A model generated the notes under the pieces. The model searched no databases. It saw nothing but the letters and a program-made list of their open reading frames with translations, and had not been told where the DNA came from. Shown one piece after another: positions 25,459-26,873 of a DNA stretch of 64,000 nt. The DNA comes from Thermoflexus hugenholtzii (GTDB lineage Bacteria; Chloroflexota; Anaerolineae; Thermoflexales; Thermoflexaceae): positions 3,252,679-3,316,678 of the forward strand of contig NZ_CP076326.1 of assembly GCF_018771565.1 (NCBI RefSeq). Reading direction: 5' to 3'. Position 1 is the first letter of the stretch. Each line of letters begins with the position of its first letter. A program made the translations under genes and the position numbers.

Positions 25459-25518
25459 GGCGGAGCGCTCCGAGCGGCCTCCGGGCGGAGGCAGAACCTT
25501 GAACGGGGGCGGCTATCC

Positions 25519-25524
25519 CCTAAA
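25519..25524 (+). repeat. Left target-site duplication of the tnpB cassette
   Basis: CCTAAA directly outside the left inverted repeat; the same six bases occur directly outside the right one at 26829-26834. Confidence 0.55.
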
Positions 25525-26828
25525 TAGGACTTACGCCGTTTTCTGCGTATTCCGGTCGTGGCCTTGGGTTTTATCCCGAGGCCAGAGGACCGGCCACCGG
25601 GGTCGCCCACCGACCCCTGCCTCGAAGGCCGGAGCCCTCGAGGAATTCCACCCCCCTGCGGGCGATGTTCACCGCCGCCGCCTCGTGACGGCCCATCCTC
25701 ACCCCGCAAGGGCACGCCAGGGCGTGTCCCCTTAGCCGGTCTACCACCCTGCCGCATACCGGACACGCCCGGGACGTGTTCTGCGGATCCACCCAAATCA
25801 CCGGAACCCCATAAAACCTCGCCTTGTGAACCAGAATCCGATGGAAAGTCATAATGCTCCAGAAGTTGAGCAAACGCTGCCGCATCCTCCTGGACTTCCC
25901 CTTCCCGATCCGCTCCTTCATCCCCTTCAGGTCCTCCAGCACCAGGGCTGCTTTCATTCCAAGCGCCCACGCAATCAGCGCCAGGGCCAGATGATGCCAG
26001 AAGTTCTCCGTCTTCTCCCGGCGGATCATTCGGTGCTTGGAGGCGATCTTCTTCTTCGCCTTCGGGTTGTGCTTCCCTCTTGTCCCTTTGATCTCGCGCC
26101 GCAGATGGTCCCGGTTGACCTTCCCCACATATCCCGTGTCGATCTCCCGGATCTCACCGGTGGAGGTCACGAAAGCCGTCAGATTCCCCTCATTGCTGTC
26201 GATCCCGATCACCCCCTCCGGCTCATAGGGGATGGGATCGGGGAACTTCAAGGGGATGGAGAGGGAATGGGCCGTGAGCGTCGGCTCCCCCATCCGCGCC
26301 CGCCCCGCCTTCCACTCGTCCAGCAGCCGGCGATACTTGTGGTGAGGGCGAAAGGTGAGGACGATGGGCTCCGGATCCCGGGGGGAGACCGGGATCGTGA
26401 CGGTCAGGGTCTCGCCGTCCCATTCGATCTTCACCGTCTGCTGGACCAGGTAGACCGATGGACGCCGGATCTCCGGCCGGTCCGCCCGGGTCTTCCCTCT
26501 CCGCTGCCGGTTTCGGAAGCCGTGGACGATCCGGGCGCCGGATCGGATCGCCCCGTAGATGAGACTGGAGTGGAGATCCGGATGCTGCGCGCGCAGGGAG
26601 GGGTAGAGGGCTTTGATGAGGGTGAAGGTGGCGGTTTTGCCGTTTTCCAGGGCGTAGTCGACGGCCTGCCGCTGGATGTCGGCGCAGGCCTCCATCAAAG
26701 CGCGGATTTTGGGATGCTCCTCGAATCGGAACCGCAGACAGACCGTCGGCATCGTCGCCGCCTCCATCCATAATGATAGCCCCGTCCGCCGCGTGAAGAG
26801 AAGGGCACAGCCAACTGCGTAACTCCTA
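25525..26828 (-). mobile_element. 1.3-kb cassette carrying tnpB, bounded by inverted repeats
   Basis: Outer ends are inverted: left TAGGACTTACGCCGTT (25525-25540) and the right end read inward TAGGAGTTACGCAGTT (26828-26813), 14 of 16 identical, with partial identity continuing to about 23 bp. A 6-bp direct repeat CCTAAA flanks both ends. The only gene inside is tnpB; there is no DDE or Y1 transposase, so the element would be non-autonomous. A small hairpin (TACGC/GCGTA, 25532-25549) lies within the left end. IS200/IS605 elements normally have hairpins but no inverted terminal repeats or duplications, so the structure is unusual. Confidence 0.65.
25571..26752 (-). CDS. tnpB: RNA-guided nuclease-family protein TnpB (IS200/IS605 OrfB), RuvC-III Asp replaced by His
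   Basis: A 393-residue TnpB-like protein. RuvC-I Asp185 is in IGIDSNEGNL, RuvC-II Glu273 in LVLEDLKGM. The zinc-finger region has CPVCG (about 330-334) and later CPC at about 347-349, so the second Cys pair has one residue between cysteines instead of two. At the RuvC-III position, where family members read DRDxNAAxNI, this protein reads GRHEAAAVNI; His356 replaces the catalytic Asp. Thus cleavage may be lost or altered. The start has GGAGG upstream. A guide RNA would be expected at the 3' end of the gene, reaching past the left cassette end. Confidence 0.85.
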   Translation of the reverse strand: MPTVCLRFRFEEHPKIRALMEACADIQRQAVDYALENGKTATFTLIKALYPSLRAQHPDLHSSLIYGAIRSGARIVHGFRNRQRRGKTRADRPEIRRPSVYLVQQTVKIEWDGETLTVTIPVSPRDPEPIVLTFRPHHKYRRLLDEWKAGRARMGEPTLTAHSLSIPLKFPDPIPYEPEGVIGIDSNEGNLTAFVTSTGEIREIDTGYVGKVNRDHLRREIKGTRGKHNPKAKKKIASKHRMIRREKTENFWHHLALALIAWALGMKAALVLEDLKGMKERIGKGKSRRMRQRLLNFWSIMTFHRILVHKARFYGVPVIWVDPQNTSRACPVCGRVVDRLRGHALACPCGVRMGRHEAAAVNIARRGVEFLEGSGLRGRGRWATPVAGPLASG

Positions 26829-26834
26829 CCTAAA
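26829..26834 (+). repeat. Right target-site duplication of the tnpB cassette
   Basis: CCTAAA directly after the right inverted repeat, matching 25519-25524. It lies 39 bp before the YbaK gene start, in that gene's likely promoter region. Confidence 0.55.
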
Positions 26835-26873
26835 ATGAAACGCAGAGGTCGAGCCTGACAGGGAGGAGGATCG

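Follow-up and report, generated by a model that had tools for sequence, protein, structure and literature searches.

How does a gene for TnpB, a protein that normally goes with transposases of the IS200/IS605 or IS607 type, come to lie between inverted ends that are flanked by a target duplication? The question is raised by a tnpB cassette at 25525-26828 of the 64,000-nt stretch of DNA analysed here (the window, whose positions serve as coordinates), which belongs to a closed 3.3-Mb genome of a hot-spring bacterium of the genus Thermoflexus (G000). The cassette has the marks of a non-autonomous IS701-family element: it has its ends in common with a transposase gene of that family, it is bordered by short target duplications, and precise empty sites are found for it. 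We consider it likely that this is an IS701-mobilised transposon carrying TnpB and its guide RNA (omegaRNA), which is retained through recognition of uninserted sites.

An earlier note on the window had described inverted ends of 23 bp, with CCTAAA on both flanks as a 6-bp target duplication. In tnpB orientation the 5' end reads TAGGAGTTACGCAGTT and the 3' end AACNGCGTAAGTCCTA; the ends TAGGACTTACGCCGTT and TAGGAGTTACGCAGTT, the latter on the minus strand, agree at 14 of 16 positions. Two of 20 shuffled windows each contained one comparable end pair, indicating that the window alone was not overwhelming, and the copies in the genome settle the question that it left weak. BLAST with window positions 25480-26860 as the query (element at query 46-1349) revealed 12 full-length copies including that of the window, 90-100% identical. 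The alignments of the 11 others (90-96%) end at or near the same two boundaries, and their flanks are unrelated. All 12 copies bear the same 16-bp inverted ends and an intact 398-residue TnpB frame. Therefore, the inverted ends are real and not a product of chance, with a conserved part of about 16-17 bp rather than 23 bp.

Duplications and flanking motifs were counted over 11 simple copies, leaving out the copy L009, which is part of a composite and is interrupted near its 5' end, upstream of the intact frame, by a 114-bp miniature inverted-repeat transposable element (MITE). A target duplication of 5-6 bp was found in 9 of the 11. The 6 bp of the window copy (TTTAGG in tnpB orientation) stand as described but are a variant, the usual size being 5 bp, as in eight copies (AAGGA, AGGAT, GGATG, AATTA, TTTAA, TTATT, ATATG and AATCA). 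L005 and L010 have no duplication, as if their flanks had been exchanged by recombination. The window's own site is empty in a sister species, where the joined flanks with a single CCTAAA match G006 C31 at 90% over all 441 bases, which is the arrangement that the earlier note had proposed to look for. Empty counterparts in sister species were found for seven sites (L001, L002, L003, L004, L006, L007 and L012), six of them with target letters identical or changed at one letter, and L002 with small indels there; for L011 the sister-species counterpart is without the target. In the sister species G004 (C20 80862-80935), the locus that holds the window copy has an insertion or duplication of another kind, with TAGGACTTATGCCGTC at an end.

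With tnpB as its sole gene, the cassette contains no transposase, and the earlier note suspected a DDE enzyme elsewhere. In its own genome, short MITEs and degraded DDE genes are bordered by these same ends. A candidate is present in the sister genome G001, namely L090, a near-complete IS701-family element of 1107 bp with a 308-residue transposase and identical 16-bp ends. The transposase belongs to the IS701 family by its match to NF049921 (E value 5.8e-113, 377.5 bits against a cut-off of 250). G001 also has two TnpB cassettes of about 51% protein identity, with the same ends and 5-bp duplications (CAGGA and TAGAT). The first 137 bp of one of them match the IS701 right end at 92% identity, so that the link between the cassettes and IS701 is not limited to the 16-bp ends. 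The suspected DDE partner thus exists in the genus, and for the window's genome, which holds only fragments of it, the ends, duplications and relatives point to mobilisation in trans by an IS701-family transposase. It is possible that the source transposase has disappeared, or that it acts following a transfer.

Other elements share these ends. Four 114-bp MITEs of G000 (197741-197854, 210914-211027, 973766-973879 and 1477171-1477284) have them without the omegaRNA. The sister genome G005 (L126-L145) shows more than 500 matches to the ends, mostly MITEs of 90-190 bp, with no recognisable IS701_2 transposase. At L049 (from G000 204450), an IS4/5-type (DUF4096) transposase gene follows a degraded IS701-like element that has these ends.

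The RNA predicted at the 3' end of the cassette is conserved as a structure. RNAalifold on 18 sequences folded the last ~124 nt into five helices of 36 pairs, with 96.8% of the cells paired. Eight pairs changed on both sides, a number reached in 0 of 500 shuffles, and slid controls gave 0-1. No match to this omegaRNA was found in Rfam. The omegaRNA of ISDra2 derives from the 3' end of tnpB and the right end of the element, and its guide follows the right end (PMC10097598). As the structure here runs to the element end, stopping 7 nt short of it, the analogy with ISDra2 suggests that the guide would start at the first flanking base, beginning with the target duplication and continuing into the flank.

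The same ~124 nt and the same ends are kept without tnpB in a further class of MITEs, four in the own genome and one in G006. One of these omegaRNA-only MITEs has a strong, 11/12 sigma-70-like promoter sequence ahead of the omegaRNA, and where readable their 5' flanks tend to NAT before the duplication. They resemble satellites of the TnpB cassettes that are reduced to the guide. At L055 (G000 1476886-1478534) a tnpB cassette and an omegaRNA-only MITE follow each other head to tail, with a gap of 3 bp, within one outer duplication, TCTCT, as if the pair had moved as a composite.

The protein itself is a TnpB by profile (PF07282, E value 6.3e-13) and by fold. The predicted structure (mean predicted local distance difference test score, pLDDT, 80.7) has the TnpB/Cas12f fold over nearly the full length, with Z scores of 17.4 to TnpB and 21.6 to Cas12f, and the WED/REC, RuvC and zinc-finger TNB domains are all present. 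The RuvC site departs from the canonical Asp-Glu-Asp triad: D190 and E278 are invariant, and the third residue, which is D361 in ISDra2 (PMC10097598), is H361. The median dN/dS (nonsynonymous to synonymous rate ratio) across the copies is 0.156 at a median dS of 0.22, and the terminal branches sum to a dN of 0.137 and a dS of 0.81 (ratio about 0.17). Neutral drift over the terminal branches would leave 12 of 12 frames free of stops with a probability of about 1e-12. Gene conversion, or transposition from copies not seen, could bias this estimate and that of selection, but the protein is clearly maintained, and purifying selection acts on TnpB. The genome has four other TnpB genes (L241-L244; G000 1223888, 167100, 1344942 and 2770865) in a different, longer repeated element, with the canonical Asp in the one frame read.

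The histidine raises the alternative, which we judge unlikely, that the same cassette encodes a nuclease-dead TnpB serving as an RNA-guided binder in the manner of TldR, for example by repressing or protecting a host promoter or the empty site of the cassette. The change of the third Asp to His in all 13 copies and in the relatives of about 51% identity speaks for this, the Asp being kept in the other TnpBs aligned from the phylum. Against it, D190 and E278 do not vary, and His361 is kept while its neighbours change (GRHE, GRHA, NRHV, NRHI), which argues for a working residue. In some RNase H-fold nucleases the metal is bound by His in place of Asp. Moreover, the guide of each copy would be directed to the site where that copy is inserted, giving no common regulatory target. 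The Asp-Glu-His site probably cuts, though it may only nick or bind the DNA.

Directly 5' of the duplication, in tnpB orientation, YAT was found in 11 of 11 copies, at a background of 1.6% in the same flanks, and 10 of the 11 have a pyrimidine at position -4. The flank on the opposite side of the cassettes is not conserved. In the window copy, with its 6-bp duplication, YAT lies six rather than five bases from the element end. The motif is already present at the empty sites in sister species, and L005 and L010, despite having no duplication, still have it at the expected place. As a control, 25 insertions of omegaRNA-less MITEs with the same ends, taken from G005 and G002, showed YAT in 4 of 50 flanks (Fisher test, 8e-10, with the composite copy counted for 12 of 12). 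YAT thus goes with the omegaRNA and not with the transposon ends, and we presume it to be the transposon-associated motif (TAM). Once the cassette is inserted, the sequence that the guide matches follows CTA, which belongs to the element, instead of YAT. An origin of YAT in start codons of downstream genes was rejected, as the ATG at the window copy opens a frame of only 7 codons and TAT variants exist.

YAT could also be the target preference of the DDE transposase, with TnpB a captured passenger that has no role in retention. Target preferences are indeed found among DDE elements, and most of the controls come from another species, but we give this explanation only a small chance. A symmetric integration complex should prefer symmetrically, and YAT occurs only on the 5' side of tnpB; the motif moves 6 nt out where the duplication is 6 bp; and it is not shared by MITEs whose ends have the same C/G asymmetry. 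A passenger would also fit poorly with the purifying selection on TnpB and the covariation of the RNA. Hardly tenable at all is the view that the inverted ends are fortuitous and the cassettes ordinary non-autonomous IS200/IS605 derivatives, the usual home of tnpB, for although four loci in the genome match the Y1 transposase family, all are unlinked, and the identical ends of 12 copies, the variable 5-6 bp duplications, the single-target empty sites and the duplication that separates motif from element rule it out, IS200/IS605 elements being inserted beside a fixed motif without duplication.

Therefore, we propose the following cycle for an IS701-mobilised TnpB-omegaRNA transposon. An IS701-family DDE transposase would recognise the TAGGANTTACGCNGTT ends, move the cassette in trans and make duplications of 5-6 bp. 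The omegaRNA ends at the cassette 3' end, and the variable duplication and then the flank would be its guide. At an uninserted site the target is preceded by YAT and would be recognised, whereas at the inserted site it follows the element's CTA, so that the host copy would be spared. The TnpB-omegaRNA complex would recognise, and probably cut, sister or incoming chromosomes without the insertion, and repair would then copy the cassette into them. Insertions beside a TAM would be retained and those without an adjoining TAM lost, which would account for the one-sided YAT. The position of each copy beside a motif needed to recognise its own empty site suggests that TnpB helps the cassettes persist. 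For the wider picture, a DDE family persisting by RNA-guided self-targeting, in which TnpB filters random IS701 insertions with an Asp-Glu-His site and guide-only satellites borrow the nuclease, we see about even chances.

Several observations weigh against this proposal. Since all copies and the relatives found have His for the third RuvC Asp, the protein may cut less well or not at all. The L090 copy of IS701 has no clear target duplication, and an intact partner transposase was not found in the window's genome, only fragments. The control MITEs are mainly from another Thermoflexus species, in which the target taste of the transposase could differ, and controls from the own species number four. 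Finally, the motif is looser in relatives (TAT in L060; GAT in L061, L070 and L122) and is absent beside L062 and L079.

Table. Positions of the tnpB cassette features in the window and of the omegaRNA-only MITEs elsewhere.
Feature	Position	Strand	Basis
Target-site duplication, left copy, CCTAAA	25519..25524	none	Direct reading; single copy at the empty site of the sister species
Terminal inverted repeat, tnpB 3' end, TAGGACTTACGCCGTT	25525..25540	+	Boundary common to 12 genomic copies; like the ends of IS701-family L090
omegaRNA scaffold, running over the tnpB 3' end up to the element end	25525..25650	-	RNAalifold covariation; ~124 nt kept in omegaRNA-only MITEs
Predicted guide, target duplication plus 3' flank, TTTAGGGGATAGCCGC...	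25509..25524	-	Geometry of ISDra2 TnpB (PMC10097598) and conserved motif abutting in the empty site
tnpB, 398 aa, RuvC D190, E278 and H361 (codon 25685-25687)	25571..26767	-	PF07282; fold; dN/dS
Terminal inverted repeat, tnpB 5' end, TAGGAGTTACGCAGTT	26813..26828	-	Boundary of 12 copies; identical 16 bp at both ends of IS701 element L090
Target-site duplication, right copy, CCTAAA	26829..26834	none	Direct reading; sister empty site
TAM-like motif CAT, directly 5' of the target duplication (tnpB strand)	26835..26837	-	YAT in 11/11 copies; already in empty sites
omegaRNA-only MITEs	G000 1476886-1477108, 1792628-1792850, 173493-173820, 1154997-1155226; L083 1448-1671 (G006)		

Comparison with known systems places the cassette between several of them. 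The nearest parallel is given by Fanzor1 and Fanzor2 in eukaryotic and viral DDE-type transposons, such as the non-autonomous SfAV Fanzor1 element (PMC10711439). Both the cassette and Fanzor1 combine a TnpB-family protein with inverted repeats and duplications, no transposase inside, and a guide RNA leading out of one end. The cassette differs in its bacterial host and its known partner family, IS701, and in its TnpB the glutamate is at the canonical position but the third Asp is His. In Fanzor1 the duplication is predicted to lie within the RNA scaffold (PMC10711439), whereas here it would start the guide, with the TAM outside it. The cassette resembles the tnpB elements of the IS200/IS605 and IS607 types, such as ISDra2, in its TnpB fold, in an omegaRNA that runs over the tnpB 3' end to the element end and in a TAM beside the target in the empty site (PMC10097598). 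Unlike these, it has no Y1 or serine transposase and no fixed motif abutting its end, and it has inverted ends and duplications. IS701-family insertion sequences and their MITEs share the identical 16-bp ends and the 5-6 bp duplications (5, 6, 7 and once 9 bp in the control MITEs); the cassettes are set apart by a cargo of tnpB and omegaRNA, or omegaRNA alone, and by the one-sided YAT. TldR proteins, which are TnpB-derived RNA-guided transcription factors (named in PMC13418256), have likewise lost a RuvC catalytic Asp, whereas the cassette TnpB keeps two of the three catalytic residues and is multicopy, mobile and supplied with self-derived guides.

A profile scan of genome contigs found relatives of this TnpB only in Thermoflexus and one bacterial metagenome-assembled genome, and a viral profile scan found none. 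The phylum-wide search yielded many distant TnpBs, and among those with a readable open reading frame none had inverted ends and a duplication, nor did shuffled controls; the association with DDE ends is thus seen only in this genus. A search of the open-access literature for TnpB with DDE, IS701, MITE or retention found eukaryotic Fanzors and no report of a bacterial DDE-borne TnpB. The TnpB-DDE association is therefore already known in eukaryotes.

A bacterial TnpB on DDE ends shows that an RNA-guided module can pass between unrelated transposition systems, as with the eukaryotic Fanzors. A TAM outside the variable duplication would make the retention idea testable from insertion statistics alone, and the one-sided motif may be taken to record how the nuclease selected among insertions once they had been made. 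Biochemical tests could address two novelties, the conserved Asp-Glu-His site and the putative guide-only satellites.
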